Part shown: one piece after another, positions 13,851 to 27,985 of the stretch
Layout of the letters: each line of letters starts with the position of its first letter
Numbering within the stretch: position 1 is the stretch's first letter
The notes under the pieces: model-generated
The model's database searches: none
What the model was told of the DNA's origin: nothing
What the model saw: the letters and a program-made list of their open reading frames with translations, nothing else
Program-made: the position numbers and the translations under genes
Source of the DNA: Verrucomicrobiia bacterium
Lineage (GTDB): Bacteria > Verrucomicrobiota > Verrucomicrobiia > Limisphaerales > UBA11358
NCBI GenBank assembly: GCA_025451535.1
Contig: JANWKE010000164.1
Span: 1-41,645 of the forward strand
Length of the DNA stretch: 41,645 bases
Direction of reading: 5' to 3'

Positions 13851-13928
13851 TCGAGCCGGTTGAGTGGACGGCCGCGAGAAATTGGCTGGCCAGTCAACGG
13901 GATCCCCTTCACCATCGGCACCCAAGTC

Positions 13929-14384
13929 ATGCGCTTTTTTTTGCTGGATAAAATCACCCGCTGGGAAACGGGCGCCGCTGCGGAAGGCCTGAAAAACATT
14001 GCCTTGAGTGAAGATTTTTTTGACGATCATTTCCCGCGCCGACCGGTCATGCCCGGGGTGCTGATCCTGGAGGGCATGGCCCAGCTTTCCGGGTTGCTGC
14101 TGGAGGAAAGTCTTCACCAGCAGTACGGGAAAAATGCCAAGGCCATCCTGACCGTTCTGGAACGTACCAAGTTCCGGACCCTGGTCAAACCCGGAGACAC
14201 ACTGCTTTACCGGGCCGAAGTCAAATCGGTGAATGAGGCCGGCGGCAAGGTCAAAGCCACTGCGGCCCGCGGCAAAACGGTTGTGACTTCGACAGAGATG
14301 ATTTTTGCCTTCAAGCAAGTGAAGGATCCGCTGCTGGACGAAAAGCGGCGGCGGTTGAAGGAGATGTGGATGAACGCGGGATAA
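13929..14384 (+). CDS. FabZ-like 3-hydroxyacyl-ACP dehydratase (catalytic hotdog)
   Basis: Dehydrates 3-hydroxyacyl-ACP to the trans-2-enoyl form. The ATG at 13929 gives a 151-aa hotdog protein starting 'MRFFLLDKITRW'. The upstream frame to a TTG at 13860 has no family match. The catalytic His34 lies in 'DDHFPRRPVMPG' and the acidic partner Glu48 in 'LILEGMAQLSG', as in FabZ. It lies 78 bp after the kinase gene and 15 bp before the KS-beta gene, opening the acyl-chain locus. The hotdog protein at 19573 starts almost identically ('MKFRLVDKITSW') but lacks the His, so the two may form a heterodimeric dehydratase like those of aryl-polyene systems. Confidence 0.92.
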   Translation: MRFFLLDKITRWETGAAAEGLKNIALSEDFFDDHFPRRPVMPGVLILEGMAQLSGLLLEESLHQQYGKNAKAILTVLERTKFRTLVKPGDTLLYRAEVKSVNEAGGKVKATAARGKTVVTSTEMIFAFKQVKDPLLDEKRRRLKEMWMNAG

Positions 14385-14399
14385 GCCACGACGGGAACC

Positions 14400-15533
14400 A
14401 TGCGTACGCGCATTGTCATTACCGGCATCGGCATGGTCACTCCGCTGGGCCAAAACCCGCCGGAGATTTTGCGTGCGATCGAATCCGGACGATCTGTAAT
14501 TGCCCCTCCGACCCGCTTCGATGTGTCCCCTTTCGCCTGCCCGGTCTGTGCCGAGATCAAAGATTTCCAGCCACAACCCTATGTGGCCGAGGGCAAAATG
14601 ATCCGCCTGATGAACCGGGAAGCCCAATTGGCTGTGGCCGCAGCGCATCTGGCACTGGGCGATGCGAGGGTGAAATCCGGCGAGGCCTATGCGCCGGATG
14701 AAATCGCACTTTTTGGCGCGATTGGACTCGCAGGCTTGCCACTGGCGGAAATCATTCCCCTGGTCAAGGCTTCCAGCGGGCCGGACGGCCGATTTGATCC
14801 CGGCCGTTTTGGTCAAGCGGGCTTGCGGGCGGTTAGTCCGATTCTTTCCTTCAAAATTCTCAGCAACATGCCGCTGTGCTTCGTGTCGATCTGCGAAAAT
14901 ATTCGGGGACCCAACGGCATCTACACTCCCTGGGAAGGACAGGGCGCGCAGGCCGTCGAAACGGCCATTCGGGCGCTGGAGAGCGGCGAGGCCGGTTGTG
15001 CCCTGGCAGGCGGCTGCGATGTGAAGACGCACGAACTTGCGTTTCTCAGCCTGGAACAACATGGGCTGTTTGCATCCTGGCAAGAAGACCACGTCGGAAT
15101 GGCGCCGGGTGAAGGCGCCGTCTTTCTGGTGCTGGAAACCGCCGAGCGGGCGATCGCCCGGGGCGCACGTATCTACGCACAAGTGTCAGGTTTGAGTTTG
15201 CGCACGCACCCGTCGGGGGCGCGCCGGGCCGACACCTTTGATGAGGTGTTTAAAGGGTTGCATCTCCCGCCGGAACCGTTGAGCGCGCTGGTCGCCGCTG
15301 ATAACGGCGATGTGTCATCCGGGAAAGATGAACAACAGGCGCTGTCATCCGGGAAAATCACCGCTCCCACCGTCATCCATCCCAAGAAACAGGCCGGGGA
15401 CCTCTTTGCGGCGGCGGCGGGATTGCAAGTCGGTTTGGCAGCATTGCTGGCGGCGCGCCACGGGGGGCGCGTTCTGGCCAACTGTTTCGGCTACGGCAGC
15501 GAACAGGCGGCCTTGGTTTTGGAGGCGCCATGA
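14400..15533 (+). CDS. Ketosynthase-like chain-length-factor (KS-beta), catalytic triad lost
   Basis: Thiolase-fold partner subunit, 377 aa. The family N-terminus 'RIVITGIGMVTPLGQNPPEI' and 'EAGCALAGGCD' (about 197-207) are clear. Where active enzymes have the nucleophilic Cys (x-A-C-A/S), this one reads 'GIYTPWEGQGAQAV', putting Glu179 at the Cys site. The first His ('NAHGTGT' in KS) is replaced by 'AADNGD' near 299-304, and the second ('TGH') by 'AGD' near 332-334. Loss of Cys-His-His with retained fold is the hallmark of chain length factors of type II PKS. Its stop codon overlaps the next start (ATGA), so it should be made 1:1 with KS-alpha. A duplicated GTCATCCGGGAAA sits at 15314-15357. 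Confidence 0.87.
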   Translation: MRTRIVITGIGMVTPLGQNPPEILRAIESGRSVIAPPTRFDVSPFACPVCAEIKDFQPQPYVAEGKMIRLMNREAQLAVAAAHLALGDARVKSGEAYAPDEIALFGAIGLAGLPLAEIIPLVKASSGPDGRFDPGRFGQAGLRAVSPILSFKILSNMPLCFVSICENIRGPNGIYTPWEGQGAQAVETAIRALESGEAGCALAGGCDVKTHELAFLSLEQHGLFASWQEDHVGMAPGEGAVFLVLETAERAIARGARIYAQVSGLSLRTHPSGARRADTFDEVFKGLHLPPEPLSALVAADNGDVSSGKDEQQALSSGKITAPTVIHPKKQAGDLFAAAAGLQVGLAALLAARHGGRVLANCFGYGSEQAALVLEAP

Positions 15534-16792
15534 AACACCGCGTTGTGATCACCGGCCAGGGGCTTTGCACATCGCTGGGGCGCAGCGTGGACGAATTCTG
15601 GCGGAACCTGCTGGCGGGACATTCCGGCATCAGCCGCATTTCTCTTTTCGACACCAGTTCGCTACCAGTCCGCATCGGTGGAGAGGTCAGGAACTTCACG
15701 CCGGGTGAAGTGTCGGGGGAATTTCCCGAAGCTGAAAACGAAAAGGATCGCAAAATCTGGCTGGGGTTGGACGCCGCTGCGGCAGCAATCACCGATTCCC
15801 AACTGCCCGGCGACACTCTTCAAAATGCGTCGCTCTTTGTGGGCGTCAGTCTGGAAACCTTCTTCCTTGAGGACGTGACCCACATTGCCCATGCGCCAAA
15901 CGCGTCCCGGGACTTCACGCGACAAATCCTGGAGCAGGAACCGCGCCGCCGGCTGCAGACCCCATTGGATCGGTTGACACAAATTTTAGGAGACCACTAT
16001 GGTTTGAGCCACGGACGATTTACGAACTGTTCGGCCTGCGCTGCCGGGGCCCAGGTCATCGGCGAGGCCTTCCGGCGGTTGCGGGACGGGACCCGCGCCG
16101 TGGCGCTTGCGGGCGCCACCGACAGCACGTTGAATCCGCTCGCCCTGGGAGGATTCAGCCTGCTCCAGATCCTTTCCACCGAAAACGATCAGCCGGAAAA
16201 AGCCTGCCGCCCGTTTGACGTCACCCGGCAGGGCACGGTGCTGGCGGAAGGCGCCGCGTTTGTCGTGATGGAGACGCTGGAGCATGCCCGGCAACGCGGG
16301 GCACGCATTTACGCCGAAGTTCTGGGGTATGGTTCTTCCCTGGACGCCTCTCGCGTTACGGATCCGGTACCGAACGGCCAGGGTGCAGCGGCCAGCATGG
16401 CCGGGGCGATCCGGGATGCCGGGTTGCAACCGGAGAACATCGCTTGCGTCAATGCCCACGGCACGGGAACGCCGAAGAATGACGTGGCGGAAACGCTGGC
16501 GATCAGGCAGGCGCTGGGCGCGCATGCCCGCGCCATACCGGTGACCGCCAACAAATCAATGACGGGGCACATGATTGCCACCAGCGGAGCGTTGGAGGCC
16601 ATTGCCTCGGCGATGACCCTGTACACTCGAAAGATTCCACCCACCATCAACCGGGCATGTCCCGATCCCCGGTGCGACCTCGATTATGTTGTCGAGGGCT
16701 GCCGCCGTTTTGAAGGGCGGACCGTGCTGTCCAACTCGTTCGGCTTCGGCGGGCAGAACGCCTCACTGGTCTTCGGAAGATTTGACTCCTGA
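15530..16792 (+). CDS. Beta-ketoacyl-ACP synthase, catalytic KS-alpha
   Basis: Condensing enzyme (FabF/KAS II family, 420 aa) that extends acyl chains with malonyl-ACP. The Cys-His-His triad is complete: Cys170 in 'NCSACAAGAQ', His310 in 'VNAHGTGTPKND' and His347 in 'NKSMTGHMIATSGA'. The C-terminal 'SNSFGFGGQNASLVFGRF' is typical. It overlaps the KS-beta gene by 4 bp, implying a KS-alpha/KS-beta heterodimer as in aryl-polyene and type II polyketide systems. The 174 bp after it, up to the ketoreductase start at 16967, contain no gene I can support and may separate two transcripts. Confidence 0.94.
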   Translation: MKHRVVITGQGLCTSLGRSVDEFWRNLLAGHSGISRISLFDTSSLPVRIGGEVRNFTPGEVSGEFPEAENEKDRKIWLGLDAAAAAITDSQLPGDTLQNASLFVGVSLETFFLEDVTHIAHAPNASRDFTRQILEQEPRRRLQTPLDRLTQILGDHYGLSHGRFTNCSACAAGAQVIGEAFRRLRDGTRAVALAGATDSTLNPLALGGFSLLQILSTENDQPEKACRPFDVTRQGTVLAEGAAFVVMETLEHARQRGARIYAEVLGYGSSLDASRVTDPVPNGQGAAASMAGAIRDAGLQPENIACVNAHGTGTPKNDVAETLAIRQALGAHARAIPVTANKSMTGHMIATSGALEAIASAMTLYTRKIPPTINRACPDPRCDLDYVVEGCRRFEGRTVLSNSFGFGGQNASLVFGRFDS

Positions 16793-16966: not shown

Positions 16967-17704
16967 GTGAAATCGGTTCTAGTCAGCGGAGCTTCACGCG
17001 GCATTGGCAAAGCGATCGCGCAGGAGCTGGCCTGGCGGGGACATAGTGTCGCCGTGGGATTCCACGAACACGCCGGGGCAGCGCAGTTTGTGGCCGAAGA
17101 GATTCAACGCGCCGGCGGCAGGGCTTTCCCGGTTCAACTGGATGTTGCCGATCCGGCCTCGTGCATCCGGGCCGCCACGGTGGTGAAGCGACGTTGCGGC
17201 AGTTTGGACATCCTCGTGAACAATGCCGGCATCACCGACGAATCACCGGCCCTGGCCACCGATGATGCCGCGTGGGAACGAGTGCTCAGGGTTTGTCTGA
17301 CTGGAGCCTTCAATTTGTCCCGCCCCTGCGCTAAATTCATGGTAACGAAGCGCTGGGGCCGCATCATCAACATTTCCTCCGTGGTCGCCAGTCAGGGCGG
17401 GCGCGGACAGGCAAACTACGCCGCCGCCAAAGCGGGCCTGGAGGGGCTGACCCGTGCGCTGGCCATCGAACTGGGACCGCGCGGCATCCTGGTCAACGCC
17501 ATTGCTCCGGGTGTGATCGTCACGGATATGTCCAGGGCGATATTGGAGAAACATTCCGAGCGCGTGCTGGCGCATGTCCTCCTGGGCCGGGCGGGCCAGC
17601 CGGCAGAAGTCGCGAGCCTGGCAGGTTTTCTGGCTTCCGACGAAGCGTCTTACATCACCGGACAGGTTTTTCACGTGGACGGTGGCTTCGGCTTGAACCC
17701 ATGA
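16967..17704 (+). CDS. 3-oxoacyl-ACP reductase 1 (FabG-like SDR)
   Basis: NAD(P)H-dependent reduction of the 3-keto group formed by the ketosynthase. 245 aa from GTG at 16967. The nucleotide-binding motif is '[13 protein letters not shown]', followed by 'LVNNAGIT' and the catalytic residues Ser137/138 ('INISSVVAS'), Tyr151 and Lys155 ('[10 protein letters not shown]'). It ends with the FabG hallmark '[14 protein letters not shown]'. All catalytic residues are present. The stop codon overlaps the nitroreductase start (ATGA). A second reductase with a different nucleotide loop is at 18751. Confidence 0.93.
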
Positions 17705-18342
17705 ACCATTACGCACATTTGCTGGAATTGATCCGTTCGCGCCGATCCGTTCGTCGGTTTTCCGACCGCGCCGTCAGTCGGGAAGACATTGTGCGCTTGC
17801 TCGAAGCCGCACGCTGGGCGCCGTCGAACCATAACCGCCAACCTTGGAGATTCATTGTCATCGAGGATCAGAAACAAATCAGCCAACTCGCGGAAACCAT
17901 CTCTCAGGGCTTGTCGGAAAAGATGGATTCGTTGCCGGCGGTGGCTGCGCAATACACCAGCCAATTCAAACAGTATGCGACCTGTTTTGCCAATGCGCCG
18001 ATGCTCGTGGTGGTGCTGCACAAGCAGCCCGTCCGCGTGTCGGCACCGGTTTTGGCGGGGCTTAAAAATCCCGATCTGGTGTCCGGGGAACCGTTGAGTG
18101 TGGCAATGGCGGTGCAGAACCTTTTACTGGCGGCACAAGCCCTGAGGTTGGGAACCTGTGTTTTGACCGGACCTTTATTGGTTCAGGAGGTCCTGGTCGG
18201 GGCATTGGGTTTGCCTGCCGGTCACGACCTCACCTGTCTGGTGGCGTTGGGATATCCGGCGGAGTCGCCAGCGCCACCGCGGAGAAAAACCATCGAACAA
18301 ATCGTCGAGTTCAGGAACAAACCCCGGCGAACAAAAGATTGA
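17701..18342 (+). CDS. Nitroreductase-family flavoprotein
   Basis: FMN-dependent NAD(P)H oxidoreductase fold, 213 aa. The N-terminal '[19 protein letters not shown]' and '[20 protein letters not shown]' are the FMN phosphate-binding and dimer segments of the family. '[19 protein letters not shown]' is the second FMN-contact region. Family members reduce nitro groups, quinones, flavins or conjugated C=C bonds, or carry out dehydrogenation, so the substrate cannot be read from sequence. Placed between FabG1 and the ACP with a 4-bp overlap upstream, it probably performs a redox step on the ACP-bound chain. It is the only protein here that could stand in for an enoyl reductase. Confidence 0.88.
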
Positions 18343-18344
18343 AT

Positions 18345-18758
18345 ATGACCAGGCAGAAAATTTTTGAAGAGTTAAAGCCGCTGCTCACGGAAGTGCTGGG
18401 CGTGCCGCCGGAAAAGATCCGTCTCGAAAGCGTGTTGGTTTCCGACCTGGGAGCGGAGTCCATTGATCTGCTCGATCTCAGTTTCCGCATCGAGGAGAAA
18501 TTTGAGGTTCGAATCGAAGCGAATGAAATTGAACGGGAGGCCATCCAGCGGCTCCCGGGTGGCGTGTATGAAAAGGACGGTTATTTGACGGAAGCGGCGA
18601 TTGGCGAAATCCGAAAGTCATTACCGGAACTGGATCCTGGCAAATTTGCGAAGGGCCTGCGGAAGGTGGATTTGCCGGCGCTGCTGACGGTCTCCTTCTT
18701 CGTCCGCCTCATCGCCCGCAAACTGGCAGCCAGGACGGAAGGAGTTGTCCATGTTTAA
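18345..18758 (+). CDS. Acyl carrier protein with C-terminal extension
   Basis: Carries the growing chain on a phosphopantetheine arm. The ATG at 18345 was chosen over the overlapping TTG at 18339. The 137-aa product has the attachment Ser39 in 'DLGAESIDLLDLSFRIEEKF', a variant of the usual DSL motif. Typical ACPs have about 80 residues. Here about 55 more residues follow, including 'LPELDPGKFAKGLRKVDLPA' and 'LTVSFFVRLIARKL', which may be a docking helix for partner enzymes. It overlaps the next gene by 8 bp. No phosphopantetheinyl transferase is present in the window, so a genomic one must activate it. Confidence 0.9.
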   Translation: MTRQKIFEELKPLLTEVLGVPPEKIRLESVLVSDLGAESIDLLDLSFRIEEKFEVRIEANEIEREAIQRLPGGVYEKDGYLTEAAIGEIRKSLPELDPGKFAKGLRKVDLPALLTVSFFVRLIARKLAARTEGVVHV

Positions 18759-19485
18759 CAACCAAAGAGCTTTTGTCACGGGCGGAACCGGCACGGTAGG
18801 GATGGCCATTGTTCGTTGTCTGGCCGAGCAGGGCGCCCAGGTCGCATTTTCCTTCAACCAGCAGGAAGACAAGGCGCGCCAGCTTGAAAAGGAACTGGCC
18901 GCCGGAAACCAGATGGTAAAGGGATACGCCCTGAATGTGGTTGACGCCGCCGGAGTCGGGCGATTGGCGGAACAAATCGAGCAGGAGCTTGGGTCCGTGG
19001 ACATCCTGGTCAACAATGCCGGGGTCACTCAGATCATGCCGTTCGCACTCCTCGAAGAGGCGGACTGGGACCAGATGATGGACGTGAATGTGAAGGGCAT
19101 GTTCCTGGTCACCAAGGCGTTCGCGCGCGCCATGATCCGCCGGAAGCAGGGCGCCATCATCAATCTGGGTTCACTCGCCGGGGCGCGGGTGCTGGAGGTG
19201 CCGGTGCATTACGCCACGGCCAAAAGCGCCGTGGTCGGCTTCACGCTTTCGCTCGCCCGAGAACTTTCCCGCTACCACATCCGGGTAAACGCCGTTGTCC
19301 CCGGTTTGCTGGAAGGCGGGGTGAGCAACTTGATTCCGGACAAACAGCGGGAAGACTATATCCAGCATTGCACGGCGGGCCGGGCCGGCAAGCCGGAGGA
19401 AGTGGCCGAACTGGTGGCGTTCCTGGCCAGTGACCGCGCCAGTTACATCAACGCCCAGGTGATCCAGATTGACGGAGGCATCTGA
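18751..19485 (+). CDS. 3-oxoacyl-ACP reductase 2 (FabG-like SDR)
   Basis: Second short-chain reductase, 244 aa. The ATG at 18751 follows a good ribosome-binding site (GGAAGGAG, 18737-18744). The nucleotide loop is 'VTGGTGTVGMAIV', unlike the usual TGASRGIG. The catalytic set is intact: 'LVNNAGVT', Ser141 ('INLGSLAG'), Tyr154 and Lys158 ('YATAKSAVVGF'). It ends 'INAQVIQIDGGI'. Having two ketoreductases with different nucleotide-binding loops suggests that they act at different chain lengths or on different intermediates. It overlaps the ACP gene and precedes the second hotdog gene by 87 bp. Confidence 0.92.
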   Translation: MFNNQRAFVTGGTGTVGMAIVRCLAEQGAQVAFSFNQQEDKARQLEKELAAGNQMVKGYALNVVDAAGVGRLAEQIEQELGSVDILVNNAGVTQIMPFALLEEADWDQMMDVNVKGMFLVTKAFARAMIRRKQGAIINLGSLAGARVLEVPVHYATAKSAVVGFTLSLARELSRYHIRVNAVVPGLLEGGVSNLIPDKQREDYIQHCTAGRAGKPEEVAELVAFLASDRASYINAQVIQIDGGI

Positions 19486-19572
19486 TGAAATTCCAAACAC
19501 CAAAACCCGATGAACCACCGATCTCCAAACTTGATGTGCTTTCTCCGGGGGTTGGGGTTTCCGTTTCAGCGT

Positions 19573-20016
19573 ATGAAATTTCGACTCGTAGATAAAATCA
19601 CGTCCTGGTCTCCGTATCAGCGGATCACCGGGGTCAAGGCGGTGTCCTTTGAGGAGTACTGCCTGAAGGAATCTTTCGGTGACGAGCCGCGCTTGCCGGA
19701 AACATTGTTGCTGGAAAGTTTTCTGCAACTGGGCAACTGGCTCATCCTGTTGTCGTCGGATTTCAAGGACACCGGCATGGTCGTGCGGATTTCTGAAGTG
19801 CGCTTCCGCGGTTTCCTTTTGCCGGGCCAGCAACTGCGGATGGAGGTGACCCTCGCGCGGCAGCGGGACGATGGGTATGAACTGTCCGGCGAAGGACGGG
19901 CGGATGGCCGGACGATCATCAGCGGTCTGGGTTGCCTCGCAGTTCCCGTACCCGCGGCGGAGCTGGTGGATCCAGAGAACCTGCGCGTGTTATTTTCGGA
20001 GATTTACGAACCGTAA
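19573..20016 (+). CDS. Hotdog dehydratase-like protein lacking the catalytic His
   Basis: 147-aa FabA/FabZ-fold protein from ATG 19573; the in-frame upstream segment from 19510 is repeat-like and not conserved. It aligns residue for residue with the dehydratase at 13929: 'MKFRLVDKITSW' at the start, then 'KESFGDEPRLPETLLLESFLQ' (truncated here) where FabZ has DHFPxxPxxPGxxxxE. Position 34 is Ser instead of His, while Glu48 remains. It is therefore probably not an active dehydratase alone. A structural partner of the first hotdog protein, or a non-catalytic product-binding protein, is more likely (inference). The preceding 19486-19572 segment has a short repeat-like 'CCAAACACCAAAACCC' stretch. 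Confidence 0.85.
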   Translation: MKFRLVDKITSWSPYQRITGVKAVSFEEYCLKESFGDEPRLPETLLLESFLQLGNWLILLSSDFKDTGMVVRISEVRFRGFLLPGQQLRMEVTLARQRDDGYELSGEGRADGRTIISGLGCLAVPVPAAELVDPENLRVLFSEIYEP

Positions 20017-20021
20017 TGATG

Positions 20022-20074: not shown

Positions 20075-20131
20075 AAGCACCCATCACCAATCCGGGGCAA
20101 CGGTGCTTGGGATTTAGCAAATCCGCATGCG

Positions 20132-20575
20132 ATGAAAACTCCAAAACTTTCCATCGTCTCCACCGAATGGCGGGAGGCGGAGCCGTCCGGCAAGGAGATG
20201 GCGTTGCACGAAGAAACTACGAACACGGCCGATAACAGGCACCCATTCGATCTTGAAGAGCGAACAACGCGTTTCGGGGAAGCCATCGTGCGCTTCACCA
20301 AAAAAATCCCCCGCGATCCTTCCAACAACCGGCTGATTGACCAGCTGGTCGGTTGTGGCACGAGCGTGGGTGCAAATTACTGCGAGGCCGACGAGCATGT
20401 TTCGAAAAAGGACTTTCGTTTCACCATCAGCCGTTGTGTCAAGGAGGCCAAGGAAACCAAGTTTTTCCTTCGTATGATCGCTGCCTCGGAACCACAGTTG
20501 GCCGAGGAAGCGCGTCGACTGTATCGGGAAGCCAAGGAACTGCATTTAATCTTTGCGGCGATCTATAGAAAATGA
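20132..20575 (+). CDS. Four-helix-bundle protein (S23/IVP-type)
   Basis: Small all-helical protein of the family named after the ORF found in 23S rRNA intervening sequences; members are pentameric helical bundles with no settled function. 147 aa from ATG 20132, although an ATG at 20201 ('MALHEETTNT') is possible. Family blocks are 'FDLEERTTRFGEAIVRFTKK', 'LIDQLVGCGTSVGANYCEAD' and 'RCVKEAKETKFFLRMI'. It splits the acyl-chain locus between the second hotdog gene and radical SAM 1, and is bordered by repeats in opposite orientation (20022-20074 and 20636-20671). It therefore looks like an inserted cassette rather than a pathway gene. Confidence 0.85.
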   Translation: MKTPKLSIVSTEWREAEPSGKEMALHEETTNTADNRHPFDLEERTTRFGEAIVRFTKKIPRDPSNNRLIDQLVGCGTSVGANYCEADEHVSKKDFRFTISRCVKEAKETKFFLRMIAASEPQLAEEARRLYREAKELHLIFAAIYRK

Positions 20576-20635
20576 AACATAAAACTCAAAATCTAATTAC
20601 CAAACCCCAATCATCAATTCAGCATGATAGTGACT

Positions 20636-20671
20636 GGGTTTTGGGGTTTTGGGATTTGGTGATTGGGATTT
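20636..20671 (-). repeat. Inverted copy of the 21-bp repeat, right border of the four-helix gene
   Basis: The G/T-rich stretch contains GGTGATTGGGATTT, which differs by one base from the reverse complement of the unit at 20043-20063, and GGGTTTTGGGGTTTTGGG. It ends 4 bp before the radical SAM 1 start, so it also replaces any Shine-Dalgarno region. With the forward copy at 20595-20617 it can fold into a hairpin. Confidence 0.75.
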
Positions 20672-20675
20672 AAGA

Positions 20676-22085
20676 ATGCGCCCCTCCCGCCCCTACACCT
20701 ACCTGGGAACCGTGCGCGGCATGTGCCGGGATTGTCGCGCCCTGGTCCCGGCACGAATCCTGGAAGCAGACGGCGCGGTTTACCAGGAGCGATTGTGTCC
20801 GAAATGCGGGACGAATCGTGCGCGAATTGCCGACGGGGTGGAATGGTACCTGAAGCGCGCGGCCACGACAGTGCGCTGCAAACCGGCCAAGCTTCCGGCT
20901 CTGGACGTGCGCGAAGGGTGTCCGAAGGACTGCGGCCCGTGCGCCTTCCACGCCAACGCCTGCCACCTGCCTGTGTTTTCGGTGACCAACGCGTGCAACC
21001 TGGATTGCCCGATCTGCTTCACTTACAACCGGCCGGATCGGAAATATTTCATGAACCGCGAGGAATTAAGGGCCCTGCTGGACAAACTCATCGCCCGGGC
21101 CGGGCCGTTTGATTTGATGAACATCACCGGTGGCGAACCGACGCTGCACCCGCAGATTGTGGAATTGTTGAAGGAATGCCAGCGGCCGGAGATCGGGCGG
21201 GTGACCATGAACTCCAACGGCCTGCGACTGGCGATGGACGAAGATTTATGTCGGGCGCTCGCCGACCTCGGGGTTTATGTGATTCTCTCCTTTGACACTT
21301 TCCGGAGCGACCGCGCGTTGAGGATATACGGCAAGGACGTAGTGAGCCTGAAACACCGGGCGCTGGAAAACCTGCAACGCTTCGGCATCGGCACGACGCT
21401 GCTCAACGTAATGATTCGCGGGGTGAACGAAGACGAAATCGGGCAGGTCATTGAGCTGGCCGGGACGCACCCGGTGGTGCGCAGTGTGACCATCCAAACG
21501 ATGACGTTCACCGGTAAGGGCGGAAAAAATTTTAAACCGCGAGAGACCATGCCATTGGACGGCGCAGTGAAGGCGATTGAATCAGCCACTCACGGTGCCC
21601 TGAGCGAAGCCCACTTTTTCCCGCACGCCGGGGCGCATCCGCTCTGTTACAGCGTCGCGTATTATCTCAAGGACAACGGAACCTGCCGGTCGCTGACGGA
21701 TTTTCTCACCGTGGGCGAACTGCGGCAGATGCTCGGACACGGTTACCTGCTGCAACCGGAGGACGACAGCCAGGATGTTTTCCGGGCGGCCATCGACCGG
21801 CTATGGGCGGCTGGCGACAACTCAAAGCTGTTGCCGGCCATCAGAGGATTGGTTGAGCGGATGTATCCGCAAGGGCAAACGCTGACCCGGGCGGCGCGCC
21901 AGGCAGTCGCCGAGGAATCACTGCTGGCGATTTATATCCATTCGCACATGGACGAGGACACGCTCGACCTGGCGCGGCTGGTGGTTTGTCCGGACCAAGT
22001 GCCCGATCCGGAAGGCCGGCTGGTTCCGGCGTGTGCGTACAACCTTTTTTACCGGCAAAAAGATCCACGTTTTTGGTGCACTTGA
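20676..22085 (+). CDS. Radical SAM protein 1, Tes/MJ0619-like architecture
   Basis: Cleaves S-adenosylmethionine to a 5'-deoxyadenosyl radical. 469 aa from ATG 20676. The N-terminal Cys4 ribbon is C17/C20 ('CRDC') and C41/C44 ('CPKC'), rubredoxin-like. An extra Cys group follows at C82, C86, C89 and C96 with H92 ('GCPKDCGPC'). The SAM-cluster motif is C107-x3-C111-x2-C114 ('CNLDCPIC'), and 'NITGGEPTLHP' is the SAM-binding GGE motif. The C-terminal half contains 'HPLCYS' and 'VPACAYNLFYRQ'. This order (ribbon, CPxxCGxC, CxxxCxxC, GGEPT) is that of the archaeal tetraether synthase/MJ0619 group, which couples lipid tails at unactivated carbons. The bacterial substrate is unknown. Confidence 0.88.
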   Translation: MRPSRPYTYLGTVRGMCRDCRALVPARILEADGAVYQERLCPKCGTNRARIADGVEWYLKRAATTVRCKPAKLPALDVREGCPKDCGPCAFHANACHLPVFSVTNACNLDCPICFTYNRPDRKYFMNREELRALLDKLIARAGPFDLMNITGGEPTLHPQIVELLKECQRPEIGRVTMNSNGLRLAMDEDLCRALADLGVYVILSFDTFRSDRALRIYGKDVVSLKHRALENLQRFGIGTTLLNVMIRGVNEDEIGQVIELAGTHPVVRSVTIQTMTFTGKGGKNFKPRETMPLDGAVKAIESATHGALSEAHFFPHAGAHPLCYSVAYYLKDNGTCRSLTDFLTVGELRQMLGHGYLLQPEDDSQDVFRAAIDRLWAAGDNSKLLPAIRGLVERMYPQGQTLTRAARQAVAEESLLAIYIHSHMDEDTLDLARLVVCPDQVPDPEGRLVPACAYNLFYRQKDPRFWCT

Positions 22086-22098
22086 AAAGAAACCCCAA

Positions 22099-22695
22099 AT
22101 GCCAATGCCCAAAACCCAAACACAGCCGACGGGACAGGAAAAGTTTCGGCAATTCCTTGTCGGCAAGACGACGGAGCATCTCTTCTCCTGGCCGACCTGT
22201 CACCCCTCCCACCCGACGGGCTTTTGTCCGTGCGATCAGGCATGGCCGGTAACATTGTGGTTTTATTTCAAATCCACTTTGCTGCTGACCGCGCTGAAAC
22301 TCCCGTTCAATGCGCTCAAGATTGCCCTGCTGCGCTGGTCGGGCGCCCGGGTGGGCCGCGATGTCTTTATTTCCACCGACGTATGGATCGACCCAACCTT
22401 CCCGGAACTGCTGACCATCGAGGACGAGGTGATGTTGGGTGTCGGTGTCCGGATTTTTCTTCATGCGTTTGACCGCGACCACTTTGAAGCCGGGCGAGTC
22501 CTGCTCCGGAAAGGCGTGATCATCGGGGGGTTTGCCATCATCGGCCACGGCGTGGAGATCGGCACAGGTGCGGTGGTGGCGGCTGGCGCGGTGGCCGGGC
22601 GTGATGTGCCGGCAGGCCGGGTCGCGATCGGCAACCCGGCGCGCATTGTACCACTCAGGAACCCCCAAACCGCAGAACCGGAATCTCATGAGTGA
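22099..22695 (+). CDS. Left-handed beta-helix (hexapeptide) acyltransferase
   Basis: 198 aa from ATG 22099 (22105 is also possible); the true N-terminus falls in an AAACCCCAAATGCCAATGCCC repeat-like stretch that encodes 'MPMPKTQTQP'. Residues about 50-80 contain a hydrophobic segment ('WPVTLWFYFKSTLLLTALKL') suggesting membrane association. From about residue 80 on come imperfect hexapeptide turns ('SGARVGRDVFISTDVWID', 'GVIIGGFAIIGHGVEIGTGA') ending in 'VAIGNPARIV', the usual close of the LbH fold. A His near 'IFLHAFDRDHFEAG' fits the family's active site. It probably acylates the product or a lipid precursor. It overlaps radical SAM 2 by 8 bp. Confidence 0.85.
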   Translation: MPMPKTQTQPTGQEKFRQFLVGKTTEHLFSWPTCHPSHPTGFCPCDQAWPVTLWFYFKSTLLLTALKLPFNALKIALLRWSGARVGRDVFISTDVWIDPTFPELLTIEDEVMLGVGVRIFLHAFDRDHFEAGRVLLRKGVIIGGFAIIGHGVEIGTGAVVAAGAVAGRDVPAGRVAIGNPARIVPLRNPQTAEPESHE

Positions 22696-24073
22696 GTATC
22701 TGACCACAACCCAGTCCACGTGCCGGACCTGCCGACAGCTGATCCCGGCGCAGATTTTCGTGGAAGACGGCAGCGTCTGGCTGCAGAAAGCATGTCCCGA
22801 ACACGGCCGGCAAACGGCGCGGATTTATGGTGACGCGCCATCGTATTTGAAGTTGGGGCATTTCCACCGCCAGGCATCGATGCCGCTGTCCTTTGCTACA
22901 AAGGCGCTGGGCTGCCCGGATTCGTGCGGCCTCTGCCCACAGCACGAGCAACATGTCTGTCTGCCAATTCTCGAGATTACCGATCATTGCAACTGGGATT
23001 GTCCCATCTGCCTGGTCACCAATCCCGGCCGTCACCATTGGACTTGCGAGGAGGTTGCGCGCGTGCTCGACGGACTCATCCAGTCCGAAGGCCAGATTGA
23101 CGTGCTCAATCTTTCCGGGGGCGAACCGACGCTGAATCCCCATTTCCGGGAGATCGTGGAGGAATGCGTTTCGCGAAAGGAAATCCTGCGCGTAAGCGTT
23201 TCGACCAACGGCTCGGTGTTGGTTCGAAACCGGGAACTGGTCGAGTTTCTGGCGGAACGCCGTGTGATTGTCTCGCTCCAGTTCGACGGCCTGAGCGACG
23301 ACATCTACCAGGCCCTGCGCGGACGTCCGTTGCTCGAGGAGAAACGGCGGCTCATTGATTGGTTCGGCGATCTGGACTCGTCCATGTCGCTGACCGCCAC
23401 CGTGGCCAGCGGTGTCAACGACCACCAGTTGGGGGAGATTGCCGACCTGTTGTTTCAACACGACCACATCCTGAGCGTGATGTTCCAGCCCGCCGCTTAC
23501 GCCGGCGGCGCGGCCGGGCAACAACGGCCTGCCGGGGCGGTGACGATTCCTGATGTGATCGCGGCATTGAACGGCGCGGGGGGGGGTACGGTATCCGCCG
23601 ATGATTTCTCCCCGCTGCCCTGCAGCCACCCCGCCTGTTTCTCACTGGCTTTTTATTTGAGAGTGGAGAATAAGCGGCACGTGCCCATCAAGCAGATGGT
23701 CAATGCGGAGCGGTACCTGGATCTGATTCAGAACCGCGCCCTTTTCGGCACGGACGTGGAAAGTTTCAATGCCGTCACGGACGCCGTGTATGAACTATGG
23801 TCCGGCCCGGCAGCCTTGTCGCCCGATTCCCAAAAAACTCTCCGGGCCATCCGGCAACTGCTGGCTGCCGTAACGGCCGACGGCGGCTACTCTCCCCACC
23901 AGGCACTGACCGTCGCCGAACGGTCAGTAAAGTCCATTTTTATCCACCAGTTTATGGACCCGGAGACCTTCGATTTGTCACGGGCTCGCAAGTGCTGCCA
24001 GGTTTATCCCCAACTCGACGGCCGGCTGGTCCCGGTTTGCGTTCACAACTGCCTCAAACGCAATTTATCATGA
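22688..24073 (+). CDS. Radical SAM protein 2, Tes/MJ0619-like architecture
   Basis: 461 aa, second paralog. The N-terminal ribbon has C12/C15 ('CRTC') and C36 with H39 ('CPEHG') instead of the four-Cys set of paralog 1. The auxiliary Cys group is C76, C80, C83 and C91 with H86 ('GCPDSCGLC'). The SAM-cluster motif is C101-x3-C105-x2-C108 ('CNWDCPIC'), with 'NLSGGEPTLNP' and 'VSLQFDGLSDDIYQALRG'. The CPEHG form of the ribbon and 'LQFDG' are especially close to archaeal Tes-like proteins. It overlaps the acyltransferase by 8 bp and its stop codon overlaps the next ATG (ATGA), so it is firmly part of the operon. Substrate unknown. Confidence 0.88.
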   Translation: MSEYLTTTQSTCRTCRQLIPAQIFVEDGSVWLQKACPEHGRQTARIYGDAPSYLKLGHFHRQASMPLSFATKALGCPDSCGLCPQHEQHVCLPILEITDHCNWDCPICLVTNPGRHHWTCEEVARVLDGLIQSEGQIDVLNLSGGEPTLNPHFREIVEECVSRKEILRVSVSTNGSVLVRNRELVEFLAERRVIVSLQFDGLSDDIYQALRGRPLLEEKRRLIDWFGDLDSSMSLTATVASGVNDHQLGEIADLLFQHDHILSVMFQPAAYAGGAAGQQRPAGAVTIPDVIAALNGAGGGTVSADDFSPLPCSHPACFSLAFYLRVENKRHVPIKQMVNAERYLDLIQNRALFGTDVESFNAVTDAVYELWSGPAALSPDSQKTLRAIRQLLAAVTADGGYSPHQALTVAERSVKSIFIHQFMDPETFDLSRARKCCQVYPQLDGRLVPVCVHNCLKRNLS

Positions 24074-25080
24074 AAACGAACCAACAAAAATCGGCTGTTC
24101 GGCTTGGTGGCAGCGTCCTCGCGGCTGGGCTGTTGCCGCTGCTGCTTTACCGGCTCCTGCTCGGGCATGTGCCGGCCTGGACCACGTTGCTGAATGGGCA
24201 GGTCGCGGTGTTTCGCGAAACGAGCTGGTTTGAACAATGGCTGGTAATCGTCACAGCCTTCGGCATCAAGCCGGCTTACACGTTATTATCGCTGGTTGTG
24301 ATCGTCTGGTTGTGGCGGCAACGGGGCCCGGACCTCGTGGCGTTGCGGTGGGGCTTGATTGCCTTCTGGCTGGGCGAAAATGCGTGTGCGGTCAACTACA
24401 TGATCTTTCACGGATATTCCAATCCCTGGGAATACCTGCACAACCTCGGCATGGCGGTGTGTTTCTCCTTTGCCACCTACGCGCTCCTGGAAGGCGTGGA
24501 TCGGCGGCTGATCAAATACAGCTCCGCCCGGGACCGGTGTGCGGCCTTGAGTCTGTGTCGCGCCTGTATCAAGCACGATCCGACTGTGCCCTGTGGCCTG
24601 CGGCGGGTGTTTACCCTGCTCCTGCCCGCAACTCTCGTGGTGGCGGCCATGCCGTTGTCCGCGGACCTGAAAACCACCGCCTATGACACCGTCATCCTGG
24701 GCAGCAACGTGCATTATTCGGAAACTCTGGCCGACCAGTTGTTTGAAATCCGTTATTGTCCGTACCTGGCCGTGTTGTTATTGACCGCCTCATGGCTGGT
24801 GCTGCTGTTCAAGCGCGAAGAGCCGGTACCCGTGGCCAAGGCCCTGTTCGCGGCGGGCATGGGCCCGGTGGGTTTTGGCTTCATGCGGCTGTTCCTGGCC
24901 GCGGCCTATCGTGATGACCCCGTGTGGTTCAATGCCTGGGAGGAAATCACGGAACTGCTCTTTGTCGCCGCCGTGGCGTTCATTCTCCTCGTATTCCGGC
25001 ATTCCCTGTTTGTAAAAGAACCACCCGCTCCAATGGACCCGGCGGGCGCACCCGTCCAGACCTGGCCAACAACAATGTGA
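24070..25080 (+). CDS. Polytopic membrane protein with a cytosolic/loop Cys cluster
   Basis: 336 aa, about seven to eight hydrophobic segments (for example 'GGSVLAAGLLPLLLYRLLLG', 'LVIVTAFGIKPAYTLLSLVV', 'LFAAGMGPVGFGFMRLFLAA', 'ELLFVAAVAFILLVFRHSLF'). The loop around residues 150-180 holds C157, C163, C166 and C175 ('CAALSLCRAC', then 'VPCG'), which could bind a metal or Fe-S cluster. Two conserved-looking acid/aromatic segments, 'IFHGYSNPWEYLHNLGM' and 'YCPYLAVLLL', suggest a substrate site at the membrane. It lies between radical SAM 2 and 3 with overlapping or 7-bp junctions, so electron supply, substrate presentation or export for these enzymes is plausible. I do not recognise the family. 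Confidence 0.75.
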   Translation: MKTNQQKSAVRLGGSVLAAGLLPLLLYRLLLGHVPAWTTLLNGQVAVFRETSWFEQWLVIVTAFGIKPAYTLLSLVVIVWLWRQRGPDLVALRWGLIAFWLGENACAVNYMIFHGYSNPWEYLHNLGMAVCFSFATYALLEGVDRRLIKYSSARDRCAALSLCRACIKHDPTVPCGLRRVFTLLLPATLVVAAMPLSADLKTTAYDTVILGSNVHYSETLADQLFEIRYCPYLAVLLLTASWLVLLFKREEPVPVAKALFAAGMGPVGFGFMRLFLAAAYRDDPVWFNAWEEITELLFVAAVAFILLVFRHSLFVKEPPAPMDPAGAPVQTWPTTM

Positions 25081-25087
25081 GGCAAGT

Positions 25088-26503
25088 ATGATTCTAACCA
25101 CCACCACTTCCGCCAAACGCCGGTATTACGATACCACCACGCTATGCCCGTTCTGTTCCCGGCTGCTGCCGGGTGAGGTCTTCGGGCGCGACCAGGGCGT
25201 CTATTTGGCCCGGGAATGCCCGGAGCATGGCCGCATCGAGGGTCTGGTCTGCTCCGACAGCAAATGGTTTGAAGGGCTGAAACGATTCGATGTTACACCC
25301 ATCAAGCCGGCGCATCCGCAACGTCCGGTCAATCAGGGCTGTCCGCTGGATTGCGGCCTCTGCACCGCACACCGGCAGGTGGCCGGCACCGTCGCCATCG
25401 AAATCTCCAACCGATGCAACGCCAACTGCCCGGTCTGCCTCGGCGACAATCGCGGCACTTTCGAGATGACCGTCGCGGAAATTGGTGAATTGGTGGAAGG
25501 CGCCATCCGGAACCAGGGCCGGATTGGCGTGCTCACGCTTTCCGGAGGCGAACCCACGATTCACCCGCAGTTCTTCGACATTCTGACCATGCTGGACCGG
25601 CCGGAAATCGGGCGCATCAATCTTAATTCCAACGGCCTGCGCATGGTCCAGGATTCAAAGTTTGTGGACCGGTTGCGACAGCATCCCAAGGTCTATGTCT
25701 CCCTGCACTTTGACGGACGAAACGCGGAACAAATCCGGGGCAACAAACCGCAATTGCAGGAACAGGCCTTGAACCGGCTGTGTGCCGCGGGCATCGGGGT
25801 CGTTCCCCTGATTCTCGGTGTGCGCGACATCAATGACCAAGAACTGGGAACCCTGGTCCCGGCGCTGTTGCAGCGCTCGAAGGCGATCAAGACCGTGATC
25901 GTCTCGTTGATGGCGTACATGGGAGCCAACGGAGGCCGCTTCAATCCGGAACCACTCCGGCGGCTCACCATCCCGGACGCCATTGACAGCATCGCCGCAG
26001 GTTCCGGGGCGGCCATTCATCGGGAGGATTTCATTCCGGTACCGATGCCCAATCCCATCTGCGCCGCAATCGGTTATTTCTTTGTGGATGCCGAAGGCAT
26101 CATCCCGATGATCCGGGCGGCGGGCGTGGACCAGACCGTCGCGTGCATCCAGAACCAGCATTTTGCCCAGGCCAACGAAAAAATGGAGGCGTTCTTCCGG
26201 GAAATGATCAACAACATCTACGCCAATCCCCGGAAATTTCCTGGCGCCGACCGGACATTGCGTCGCCTGAAAACATTTGTGGCGCGGCTTTTTTCCGGCG
26301 ACCGGCGGTCCGCGGCGGAACGGCAGGCCATCGCCGAGGAAAGCATCAAGACGGTGTTCATCATGCAATTCATGGACAGCTGGACATTCGACACCCAACG
26401 CCTGTCCAAATGCAGTTGCCAGCATCTGCTGCCCGGCAACCGGCTGGTACCCAGTTGTGGTTACTATGCCTTCCATCGCCAGCGGGACGCGCGCTTTGCT
26501 TGA
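25088..26503 (+). CDS. Radical SAM protein 3, Tes/MJ0619-like architecture
   Basis: 471 aa, third paralog. The ribbon has C20/C23 ('CPFC') and C44 with H47 ('CPEHG'); the auxiliary group is C85, C89 and C92 with H95 ('GCPLDCGLC'); the SAM cluster is C110-x3-C114-x2-C117 ('CNANCPVC'). 'TLSGGEPTIHP' binds SAM, and 'VYVSLHFDGRNAEQIRG' matches the LQFDG region of paralog 2. Late motifs are 'VPMPNPICAAIGYFFVD' and 'VPSCGYYAFHRQRDARF', the same C-terminal signature as paralog 1. Starts 7 bp after the membrane gene. Retention of all Cys motifs in three diverged copies suggests three distinct chemical steps rather than redundancy (inference). Confidence 0.88.
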   Translation: MILTTTTSAKRRYYDTTTLCPFCSRLLPGEVFGRDQGVYLARECPEHGRIEGLVCSDSKWFEGLKRFDVTPIKPAHPQRPVNQGCPLDCGLCTAHRQVAGTVAIEISNRCNANCPVCLGDNRGTFEMTVAEIGELVEGAIRNQGRIGVLTLSGGEPTIHPQFFDILTMLDRPEIGRINLNSNGLRMVQDSKFVDRLRQHPKVYVSLHFDGRNAEQIRGNKPQLQEQALNRLCAAGIGVVPLILGVRDINDQELGTLVPALLQRSKAIKTVIVSLMAYMGANGGRFNPEPLRRLTIPDAIDSIAAGSGAAIHREDFIPVPMPNPICAAIGYFFVDAEGIIPMIRAAGVDQTVACIQNQHFAQANEKMEAFFREMINNIYANPRKFPGADRTLRRLKTFVARLFSGDRRSAAERQAIAEESIKTVFIMQFMDSWTFDTQRLSKCSCQHLLPGNRLVPSCGYYAFHRQRDARFA

Positions 26504-26575: not shown

Positions 26576-27022
26576 ATGAAGAAACTTTGTGATCTTTATG
26601 TCGCCAAAGCAGGACTCATCGGGGCGCTGTATTGTATCGTTCCCACCTTGATAGGTTTTGCCATAATGTTTTGTGTGATGCCATTCCGGCAGGTTTACCT
26701 CTATCGCCTGGCTATTGTGATGCTTGTCGGGGCGCCGGTGGCGGCCTGGTTAAACCGCTTTGGGCTCTCTCTGTGGATAATCAAGCATACCTCACCCAAG
26801 GGCCCGGCCACCGTCCTGGACGGGGCGTTGATCGGATGGTTTCTGGGGATGGGCATGTCCGTGATTCCCGCGTTCGTCCATTTCATCGCCTCGAACGGCA
26901 TGGATGGGACCAAAACCATCGTTATCACCATCTGGTTCCTTGCCGGCGGCGCGGGAGCGATCATCGGTAGCGTACTCGGCCTGGTCGGGGCGAAATATCT
27001 GGACCGCCAATCCGGCGCCTGA
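26576..27022 (+). CDS. Small polytopic membrane protein, end of the locus
   Basis: Function unknown; 148 aa with about four transmembrane helices ('LIGALYCIVPTLIGFAIMFC', 'LAIVMLVGAPVAAWLNRFGL', 'VLDGALIGWFLGMGMSVIPA', 'VITIWFLAGGAGAIIGSVLG'). It follows radical SAM 3 after 72 bp on the same strand and may be the last gene of that transcript or a separate one. It has the Gly-rich helix style of small accessory membrane proteins; no catalytic motif is evident. It ends convergently with the DUF1571 gene, 114 bp away. Confidence 0.65.
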   Translation: MKKLCDLYVAKAGLIGALYCIVPTLIGFAIMFCVMPFRQVYLYRLAIVMLVGAPVAAWLNRFGLSLWIIKHTSPKGPATVLDGALIGWFLGMGMSVIPAFVHFIASNGMDGTKTIVITIWFLAGGAGAIIGSVLGLVGAKYLDRQSGA

Positions 27023-27136: not shown

Positions 27137-27985
27137 TCAGAAATGATACCCGGGGTTCTTCGGGTCGAAGTCTTTGTCGCTCAAGCCAGGGTTAAGGCTC
27201 AGGTGTTCGTATCCGTAGGACTCGACGAGTTGGTCTTGCCAATTGAAGATCCGGGTCTTGATCGGCATCCTGGTTTCGACATCCAGGTTCACAATGCACC
27301 GATAGCAATAATAACCCTTCGAAGGATCCTTTGGCAAAATACCTTCCAACTCTCGCGTTTTCCTTCCATAAACCGTTTGCTCGCCGTGATCGGTGGAAGT
27401 GAGTTCGCCCGCACGCAGGCCCCTCCGAAGATTCGAGCCAATTATCTTTACCAGACTCTCCAGCCCGGCTTCCGTGACGGGGTGGCGGGAATCTTTCATC
27501 GCCAGCCCCCCGGTCGGATCCAGGTTGACCGTTATAAGTCCGGCGAAGCCCGTGCCATGAGCCCGGACTTTGTTATTGTTGGCGCCCTCGACGTATAGCG
27601 ACTCCTGGCCTTTAAAAGGGCCGATCCACTTCATGTAAACCTTGAATGGCCGCTTGAATTTGAGAAGCGTTATCTGTTCCGGAACCAGCTTGCCATCGAC
27701 CCGTTCGATACGGTGAAAAACCGCCGTATAGTTGTCAAGTTTGGCCAGCGCCGCTTCAGTTTCCTGGAGCTGTTTTTCGAGGTCGGTGCCGTTCTGGGCG
27801 CGCGCGTTGTTTTGGGCAAGCAGGATGGACAGCAAGGTGAACCAGGCCAAAAAAATTCCTGTCGCGCGACGCAGGTGATACGAAAGCGAATCCGGTTCCC
27901 AACCGCTGGAAAACTGAGCCGCGTTGTCCCGCGGGTTTATTGAGGTCGGCCAGGTGAGGGAAGATTGGCTTTCGCTCGCACACAT
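27137..27985 (-). CDS. DUF1571 exported protein
   Basis: 282 aa, encoded opposite to its neighbours. The N-terminal 40 residues are polar, then 'ATGIFLAWFTLLSILLAQNN' forms a signal-anchor; the annotated start at 27985 may be too far upstream. The mature part matches DUF1571: 'LDNYTAVFHRIERVDGKLVP', 'PFKVYMKWIGPFKGQESLYV' and 'IVNLDVETRMPIKTRIFNW'. The fold is thought to resemble LolA/LolB-type lipoprotein carriers (half beta-barrel binding a hydrophobic ligand), so a periplasmic lipid or lipoprotein role is plausible. Its position between the lipid-like locus and lptF is suggestive, but it is transcribed separately. Confidence 0.8.
   Translation of the reverse strand: MCASESQSSLTWPTSINPRDNAAQFSSGWEPDSLSYHLRRATGIFLAWFTLLSILLAQNNARAQNGTDLEKQLQETEAALAKLDNYTAVFHRIERVDGKLVPEQITLLKFKRPFKVYMKWIGPFKGQESLYVEGANNNKVRAHGTGFAGLITVNLDPTGGLAMKDSRHPVTEAGLESLVKIIGSNLRRGLRAGELTSTDHGEQTVYGRKTRELEGILPKDPSKGYYCYRCIVNLDVETRMPIKTRIFNWQDQLVESYGYEHLSLNPGLSDKDFDPKNPGYHF

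Follow-up and report, generated by a model that had tools for sequence, protein, structure and literature searches.

The window analysed here is a stretch of 41,645 nucleotides (contig JANWKE010000164.1, assembly GCA_025451535.1) from a Verrucomicrobiia bacterium. At 20676-26503 it carries three radical S-adenosylmethionine (SAM) genes, here called rSAM1, rSAM2 and rSAM3, whose products resemble the archaeal tetraether lipid synthase Tes (MJ0619), which couples lipid chains. Between them lie two other genes, one for a hexapeptide acyltransferase-like product and one for a membrane protein. The three open reading frames (ORFs) are full length, lie on the + strand and contain no internal stops:

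20676..22085, + strand: rSAM1, Tes-like radical SAM protein by sequence, with a four-Cys ribbon and His at the position of Met439 of Tes.
22688..24073, + strand: rSAM2, radical SAM protein with a modelled Tes fold, His at the Met439 position and the lineage-specific residues C91 and C312.
25088..26503, + strand: rSAM3, radical SAM protein with a modelled Tes fold, of a separate rare lineage, with Met at the Met439 position.

The start of rSAM2 is the ATG at 22688, which corrects the original prediction made for this DNA; the gene overlaps the preceding acyltransferase-like gene by 8 nt. Upstream of rSAM1, and unmentioned in that prediction, a series of genes identified by Pfam runs on the same strand in the order FabZ1–KASlike1–KAS2–FabG1–NitRed–ACP–FabG2–FabZ2 (13860-20016).

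Each of the three proteins matches the Pfam domains Zn_ribbon_HMPTM and Radical_SAM. Identity among them is 31-33% (32% to rSAM1 for both rSAM2 and rSAM3; against rSAM2 the values are 33% and 31%), and a search of their own genome with rSAM2 returned just these three at E <1e-60, the fourth match being a fragment (E 6e-4). In a sequence search of the PDB, the Tes entry 7tol was the sole match at E<=1e-6 for rSAM1 (E 4.6e-46, residues 15-329) and rSAM3 (6.3e-44), and the best match of rSAM2 (3.1e-55). By this measure the resemblance of the three proteins to Tes is far beyond chance.

The Tes structure paper describes the metal ligands of MJ0619 as a rubredoxin site, C9-C12-C33-H36, in the ribbon motif C9x2C12x20C33x2H36, an N-terminal auxiliary cluster held by C73-C77-C80-His, a CX3CX2C radical SAM site and a C-terminal cluster that carries a labile Met439; both Met439 and Tyr459 are given as completely conserved in 1000 archaeal homologues (PMC9433317). 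We compared these positions in an alignment of 161 rows: 87 rSAM1-type (c1), 56 rSAM2-type (c2) and 3 rSAM3-type (c3) proteins, 14 distant single homologues, and MJ0619. Lineage labels were taken from the best phmmer score, not from a tree. All published Tes metal-ligand Cys are retained in the three window proteins, and these Cys are near-universal across the c1, c2 and c3 rows. The ribbons read C17x2C20x20C41x2C44 in rSAM1, C12x2C15x20C36x2H39 in rSAM2 and C20x2C23x20C44x2H47 in rSAM3. The auxiliary block is C82/C86/C89/H92, C76/C80/C83/H86 and C85/C89/C92/H95, and the radical SAM triad C107/C111/C114, C101/C105/C108 and C110/C114/C117, respectively; the GGEPT motif is present in all three. 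The alignment thus bore out the original prediction that a Cys ribbon, a CPxxCGxC...H block, CxxxCxxC and GGEPT follow one another in the order and spacing of Tes, with four Cys in the ribbon of the first paralog (C44) and a His in its second half in the other two (H39 and H47). rSAM2 and rSAM3 keep all four rubredoxin ligands; rSAM1 keeps the three Cys and has Cys44 for His36, which still makes a possible metal site. Among the 87 c1 rows this column holds His in 66, Cys in 14, Lys in 3, Gln in 1, Asp in 1 and two gaps. That prediction did not include the C-terminal Cys residues, which are C324/C438/C453 in rSAM1, C317/C436/C451 in rSAM2 and C325/C442/C457 in rSAM3. Their counterparts C338, C455 and C470 (MJ0619 numbering) are retained in nearly all rows of every lineage and are probably the remaining ligands of the C-terminal cluster.

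The lineages part at the two residues described as invariant in archaea. The Met439 position is H422 in rSAM1, H420 in rSAM2 and M426 in rSAM3. The column is His in 86 of the 87 c1 rows (one Ser) and in 55/55 c2 rows with a letter (one gap), or 141/142 for the two together; it is Met in 3/3 c3 rows, and in 4/4 rSAM3-type genomes once a fourth, found later, is counted. The distant single homologues have Lys (13/13 with a letter, one gap). Tyr459 is kept only in rSAM2 (Y440; Tyr in 55/55 c2 rows with a letter); it is replaced by V442 in rSAM1 (V, N, I or D across c1) and by H446 in rSAM3 (His across c3). Two further residues of rSAM2, C91 and C312, are invariant in c2 (56/56 each) and in the distant homologues (14/14 each), and their equivalents are missing from MJ0619, rSAM1 and rSAM3.

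Comparison of predicted structures with Tes, proposed earlier as a check, was carried out for rSAM2 and rSAM3. The AlphaFold2 models (predicted local confidence, pLDDT, 88.2 and 90.9; predicted template-modelling score, pTM, 0.90 and 0.92) matched 7tom end to end, with Z 47.9, root-mean-square deviation (rmsd) 3.1 and 429 aligned residues for rSAM2, and Z 47.3, rmsd 2.7 and 433 aligned residues for rSAM3. The next-best structures were other radical SAM enzymes, at Z ~21 and ~18, and Foldseek concurred for rSAM3 (TM 0.81). As modelled, rSAM2 and rSAM3 have the overall Tes fold; the 7tol match at E 4.6e-46 suggests that rSAM1 is Tes-like as well. For a lipid tunnel, which the original prediction had suggested looking for in such models, the fold match gives indirect support. 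Weak evidence also comes from the hydrophobic fraction of the C-terminal helical stretch, which is similar throughout: 0.46 in MJ0619, 0.42 in c1, 0.40 in c2, 0.41 in c3 and 0.38 in the distant homologues.

Family models place the three proteins beside Tes rather than in it. Against the NCBIfam Tes/GDGT-MAS model NF045702 (cut-off 450), rSAM1, rSAM2 and rSAM3 scored 210.9, 234.6 and 236.1 bits, and these three together with eight Tes-like relatives all stayed at or below 249 bits. The top-scoring model for all three was the radical SAM (seleno)protein TrsS, NF045646, with a near end-to-end alignment and 225.5, 266.4 and 237.4 bits, below its cut-off of 490. To our knowledge TrsS has no known function. 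Among the NCBIfam models shown, none exceeded its cut-off for the three proteins, and both Tes and TrsS were rejected as family names because every member scanned scored too low. The window proteins therefore share with Tes (MJ0619; 7TOL/7TOM) the fold (modelled for rSAM2 and rSAM3), the rubredoxin and auxiliary-cluster Cys, the radical SAM site and the motif spacing, but they differ in identity (22-30% in the structural alignments of rSAM2 and rSAM3), in the His for Met439 of rSAM1 and rSAM2, in the loss of Tyr459 from rSAM1 and rSAM3, in the four-Cys ribbon of rSAM1, in score and in their bacterial gene context. Judged by sequence, rSAM1 and rSAM2 fall outside Tes by score and labile ligand, and rSAM3, which keeps the Met ligand, by score and Tyr459.

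That context is a ketosynthase–chain-length-factor (KS-CLF) cluster, made up of the following genes:

13860..14384, + strand: FabZ1, dehydratase with intact catalytic His and Glu (Pfam FabA, 2.5e-24; His in 39/39 and Glu in 39/39 FabZ1 rows).
14400..15533, + strand: KASlike1, ketosynthase-like, chain-length-factor-like protein lacking the catalytic residues (Pfam ketoacyl-synt; Cys-His-Lys-His in 0/27 rows).
15530..16792, + strand: KAS2, active-type ketosynthase (Cys-His-Lys-His in 47/47 rows; FabF-type, 392 bits against the TIGR03150 cut-off of 494).
16967..17704, + strand: FabG1, ketoreductase (Pfam adh_short_C2; NCBIfam FabG subfamily, 261 bits against a cut-off of 222).
17701..18342, + strand: NitRed, nitroreductase family (Pfam 6.4e-35; best NCBIfam model BluB, 82.9 bits, below its cut-off of 150).
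18339..18758, + strand: ACP, acyl carrier protein with the phosphopantetheine Ser (Pfam PP-binding; Ser in 49/49 rows).
18745..19485, + strand: FabG2, second ketoreductase (Pfam; NCBIfam FabG subfamily, 230 bits against a cut-off of 222).
19510..20016, + strand: FabZ2, hot-dog protein without the catalytic His (Pfam FabA, 9e-12; His lost in 15/15 FabZ2 rows, Glu kept in 15/15).

KAS2 overlaps KASlike1 by 4 nt, and a full catalytic set in 47/47 KAS2 rows against 0/27 rows of its partner is, at the sequence level, the mark of a KS-CLF pair; the PDB ketosynthase 6kxd is the second-best match of KASlike1. Both window ketoreductases retain Ser, Tyr and Lys, which some FabG2-type relatives do not. 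Ishigamide, like aryl polyene, is a product of a highly reducing KS-CLF type II polyketide synthase (PKS). The window cluster resembles such systems in joining a catalytic ketosynthase, a dead ketosynthase partner, ACP, ketoreductase and dehydratase, but also has a nitroreductase-like protein and two or three radical SAM enzymes that resemble Tes. A KS-CLF is named in aryl polyene synthesis in PMC8358021.

The genome scan for relatives kept the best 80 of 525 confirmed matches, equal to 76 distinct loci; all locus counts are lower bounds, and neighbour counts rest on ORF matches from a simple gene caller that missed genes in several loci. The all-against-all comparison covered the longer ORFs. 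Both c1 and c2 occurred in 53 loci, c1 alone in 22 and c2 alone in 1; for Massilia rubra and M. mucilaginosa, two of the "c1 alone" cases, the c2 gene lies just past the fetched stretch. The nearest c1 and c2 ORF starts were less than 3.5 kb apart in 46/53 paired loci, on the same strand in 45/46 of these, and a whole-genome search of 16 chosen genomes found at least two copies in 16/16. A mirror-tree comparison of c1 and c2 gave r = 0.960 over 49 pairs, to which shared descent contributes, and 0/2000 permutations reached as high. A ketosynthase match was present in 43/76 loci (36/53 of the paired ones), a ketosynthase with its partner in 39/76 and an ACP in 48/76.

These clusters fall in two classes. 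Class A, of the window's type, comprises 26 loci by rSAM1 score. Class B, found in myxobacteria, Acidobacteria, Massilia and others, often includes an aminotransferase-III-type gene; the 29 loci with that family include 2 of class A, and Pfam confirmed it on two members. The Massilia rubra class B cluster has a third ketosynthase. A further class B family (F16; L050, L051, L064, L079, L081) consists of proteins of ~350-390 aa with no Pfam match in L050, L051 and L081; its genes lie between the aminotransferase and ACP genes in L081 and upstream of rSAM1 in L050 and L051.

The history of the three genes was followed in a quick tree of 131 rows (162 collected, of which 31 were dropped, 3 as short or duplicate and 28 in thinning out the loci of myxobacterial type; before this, 2 short fragments had been excluded) and in a careful tree of 51 hand-picked rows. 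In the careful tree the clade with rSAM1 had 22 members (support 100/99) and the one with rSAM3 had 3 (100/100). The window rSAM2 belonged to a group of 13 that spans several phyla (100/99), and rSAM1 and rSAM2 types came together with rSAM3 outside (94/82). The rSAM2 types present an untidy picture: one group of 47 in the quick tree (SH-aLRT 90, drawn open), and three well-supported groups in the careful tree, whose order relative to rSAM1 is not settled. The root is also unsure because MJ0619 is a long branch. In both trees each window protein first joins proteins from other phyla, and only after that the other two window copies, which argues against an origin in situ. The tandem triplication put forward in the original prediction was therefore rejected by both trees, a family tree being the check it had proposed for this question; rSAM1 and rSAM2 are instead old, co-inherited paralogues, of lineages brought together rather than triplicated in place. 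The accompanying view that such an arrangement is unusual within one bacterial operon stands for the third gene and fails for the pair, which is together in 53/76 loci.

The c1 loci span at least 16 named phyla and the c2 loci at least 14; a few of these labels may be wrong because most loci are metagenome bins, and we take one bin labelled Bordetella parapertussis to be a mislabelled environmental bin. Genomes of the phylum to which the window belongs have the cluster only sporadically: an rSAM1 match at E<=1e-60 was found in 2/377 sampled genomes, the own genome included, and an rSAM3 match in 2/387. The nearest relative of every window protein is the metagenome-assembled genome (MAG) locus L021, at 91, 92 and 89% identity for rSAM1, rSAM2 and rSAM3. 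The ratios of nonsynonymous to synonymous substitution rates (dN/dS) against L021, 0.089, 0.089 and 0.149, show purifying selection on all three genes in this sequence comparison. With frames and Cys sets intact, decay of the genes was rejected, as had been anticipated, and the three are separately maintained. Among 35 same-genus genomes none had more than one homologue, and that one was distant. Such single distant homologues (L103-L111 and others) number 14, from 7/35 same-genus and 7/23 same-order genomes. They form a separate clade with Lys at position 439 and without two of the three N-auxiliary Cys. No KS, CLF, ACP or NitRed match was found near the nine with fetched flanks, and the two that were scanned both scored below the TrsS cut-off.

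rSAM3 sits between MemP and smallTM, the genes of two membrane proteins listed below; L024 has two other radical SAM genes in that place instead. These other genes belong to families F8 and F12. In L024 (14368-16456) and comparable loci, all of them related clusters of Verrucomicrobia, they are found close to the gene for the membrane protein, and an F8 member of L048 carries a SPASM domain. By sequence, rSAM3 belongs to a third, rare lineage also present in two Myxococcota-type genomes. In one of them, the Myxococcota MAG locus L072, the rSAM3-type gene and the rSAM1 gene overlap by 4 nt. The other, G906, was the one further rSAM3 genome among 282 sampled from that phylum (E<=1e-110), and it carries the rSAM1/rSAM2 pair elsewhere in the genome. 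rSAM3 co-occurs with the pair in 4/4 genomes known to carry it.

Together, these data make it somewhat more probable than not that the three Tes-like proteins serve a dedicated type II polyketide or fatty-acid cluster of the highly reducing kind as its tailoring enzymes, acting by radical modification of an acyl chain. The presence of three distant cousins of archaeal Tes in a fatty-acid-like assembly line of many phyla points to a radical-modified lipid. In the pathway that we envisage, whose substrate, product and step order are inferred, the KS-CLF machinery would assemble an unsaturated or oxygenated acyl chain on ACP. rSAM1 and rSAM2 would act as partners or in successive steps, the chain entering a Tes-like hydrophobic pocket where 5'-deoxyadenosyl radicals would abstract hydrogen from unactivated carbons. 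In Tes, Csp3-Csp3 coupling passes through a species in which a substrate carbon is bonded to a sulfur atom of one of the [Fe4S4] clusters (PMC9433317). In the pair, the C-terminal [4Fe-4S] cluster, facing His and not a labile Met, might likewise hold the first carbon radical as a C-S bonded intermediate until a second carbon radical allows a C-C bond to close, so that a ring or a coupled chain results; tailoring would consist of making C-C and possibly C-S bonds. The product could then be attached and delivered to the envelope by the acyltransferase-like, membrane and DUF1571 proteins, and rSAM3, with its Tes-like Met, may supply a further step in a few lineages.

Several observations weigh against this assignment. 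The KS-CLF link is strong but not universal: the fetched stretch of 24/76 loci, many of them short contigs, has no KS, CLF, ACP or NitRed match, and none was found in L063, L070 and L093 despite full 10-kb flanks, nor in the 6 kb upstream of the pair in L057, a whole 15-kb contig. The rSAM3 gene of G906 stands apart, on a 10-kb contig that has none of the other genes of the cluster, and part of the correlation of r = 0.960 between c1 and c2 comes from shared descent. No gene could be assigned as an enoyl reductase, NitRed and the FabG-type genes being candidates only, so that a saturated chain, as used in the Tes reaction, is not established. The His swap need not alter the reaction, since a Met439-to-Ala variant of Tes keeps robust activity (PMC9433317). 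Finally, the function proposed here is predicted from sequences and models.

One alternative is that the proteins are bacterial tetraether or membrane-spanning lipid synthases, coupling the ends of two phospholipid fatty acyl chains to give iso-diabolic acid and branched glycerol dialkyl glycerol tetraethers (brGDGTs). Chain-end coupling is the family's best-studied reaction (PMC9433317), fold and cofactor Cys are as in Tes, and rSAM3 keeps the Met ligand. That bacterial homologues make brGDGTs was put forward in print by Zeng et al. 2022 and taken up again for Black Sea bacteria, as an untested idea (PMC8941075; PMC11868695). We nevertheless consider this explanation unlikely. rSAM1 and rSAM2 lie within a KS-CLF cluster expected to make its own chain, no ether-lipid gene was found among the Pfam-scanned neighbours (chosen genes, not every neighbour), Met439 is His in rSAM1 and rSAM2 and Tyr459 is changed in rSAM1 and rSAM3, and the scores of at most 249 bits lie far from the Tes cut-off.

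It is also quite unlikely that the rSAM1/rSAM2 pair inserts sulfur, with the C-terminal cluster as donor in the manner of biotin or lipoyl synthase and the C-S bond as product. This idea deserves a test because Tes passes through a C-S species and a NifS-like cysteine desulfurase family occurs in 8/26 class A loci (L032, L035, L036, L037, L038, L041, L042 and L044). In 6/8 of these the gene directly adjoins FabZ1 or rSAM2, and the L037 member has a rhodanese domain. According to PMC9433317, SAM-limited Tes accumulates a sulfur-containing lipid, and the odd cluster ligand, whose position is His in rSAM1 and rSAM2, is likened to the Arg of biotin synthase and the Ser of lipoyl synthase. However, no desulfurase was found in the other 18 class A loci, some of them truncated, or among the window's cluster genes, and the enzyme may merely serve Fe-S assembly.

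Action on a non-lipid substrate, such as methylation of a pterin or other cofactor, with the PKS adjacency reduced to mere operon sharing, seems improbable. The Pfam zinc ribbon is still named after the older HMPTM annotation, and none of the NCBIfam models shown fits the three proteins above its cut-off, but the pair is tightly co-inherited, the KS-CLF linkage recurs in many phyla, and the Tes structure paper argues that the active site is unlikely to accept methanopterin (PMC9433317). Least credible, and very improbable in our view, is a ladderane-type pathway building strained rings from a polyene: candidate anammox clusters, as described in PMC2649909 and PMC4790861, also join non-canonical FabF, ACP, FabZ, FabG and radical SAM genes, but by our test their radical SAM family is a different one, since the family of the window was found at E<=1e-25 in 0/25 anammox-like Planctomycetota genomes by a query that recovers 16/16 known holders, and no phytoene-desaturase-like gene was seen among the Pfam-scanned window genes. 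The 25 genomes were picked by us by ORFs of 715-844 aa with few matches each, and are presumed to be anammox bacteria, after a hydrazine-synthase domain search had matched 76/392 Planctomycetota genomes, more than expected from anammox alone.

Returning to the tailoring of an acyl chain, the results bear on how bacterial Tes homologues are read. Such homologues were already noted in PMC9433317. Zeng et al. 2022 counted 456 of them and report Acidobacteria and Proteobacteria as carriers (PMC8941075), and they were also found in Planctomycetota and other Black Sea bins (PMC11868695). The homologues of Zeng et al. belong to the same superfamily; what defines the lineages described here is their gene context and their residue swaps. 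In the open-access literature, with few subscription journals and preprints covered, we found no description of the KS-CLF context, the paired lineages or the Met/His/Lys ligand difference. Since some lineages belong, by gene context, with a polyketide-type cluster, the presence of a "Tes homologue" should not be taken as tetraether capacity, or as proof of bacterial tetraether lipids, unless lineage and ligand have been checked. For the lineages described here, the published and untested suggestion of brGDGT synthesis by bacterial Tes homologues is weakened. As a tentative wider proposal, which we hold with considerable doubt, there may be a widespread, as yet undescribed class of bacterial lipids for which a KS-CLF line feeds a conserved Tes-like pair whose His-ligand [4Fe-4S] cluster captures a chain radical, yielding C-C rings or cross-links, or C-S bridges, at unactivated carbons; part of the bacterial "Tes" brGDGT signal would then be such a pathway. 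The Met/His/Lys difference at the labile cluster ligand offers a simple sequence marker and a target for mutagenesis. Named strains, Massilia rubra CCM 8692 and Sorangium cellulosum So ce26, are among those whose records contain the cluster, so the reaction of the pair is open to knockout and lipidomics.

The remaining genes among and beside the radical SAM genes are as follows:

22099..22695 (ORF opens at 22033), + strand: hexapeptide-repeat acyltransferase-like protein (Pfam Hexapep, 28.5 bits against a cut-off of 27).
24070..25080, + strand: MemP, predicted membrane protein of no assigned family (no Pfam match above cut-off).
26576..27022, + strand: smallTM, small membrane protein, possibly a cluster member (homologues in L021, L024, L031 and L041; no Pfam match).
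27137..27985, - strand: DUF1571 protein (Pfam 4.6e-50; also a weak MucB_RseB match).

The hexapeptide protein has WcaF-like and heptaprenylglyceryl phosphate O-acetyltransferase-like NCBIfam matches, both below their cut-offs. MemP overlaps rSAM2 by 4 nt; members of its family occur in 11 loci, all class A, with additional phmmer matches in L023 (201 bits) and the class B locus L096 (226 bits). DUF1571 homologues sit between rSAM1 and rSAM2 in L042, L043 and L045.

Between FabZ2 and rSAM1 the window has an insertion of ~620 bp (20014-20675), where the gap in L021 is ~39 bp. It contains a 23S-rRNA-IVP-type ORF (20132-20575) and 24-nt inverted arms (20050-20073 and 20648-20671), and it may cut the radical SAM genes off from the upstream transcript. 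Directly upstream of the cluster (9342-13850) lie a tmRNA gene, then genes for an extracytoplasmic function (ECF) sigma factor and for a large RDD-domain Ser/Thr kinase, the latter two possibly regulators of the cluster.

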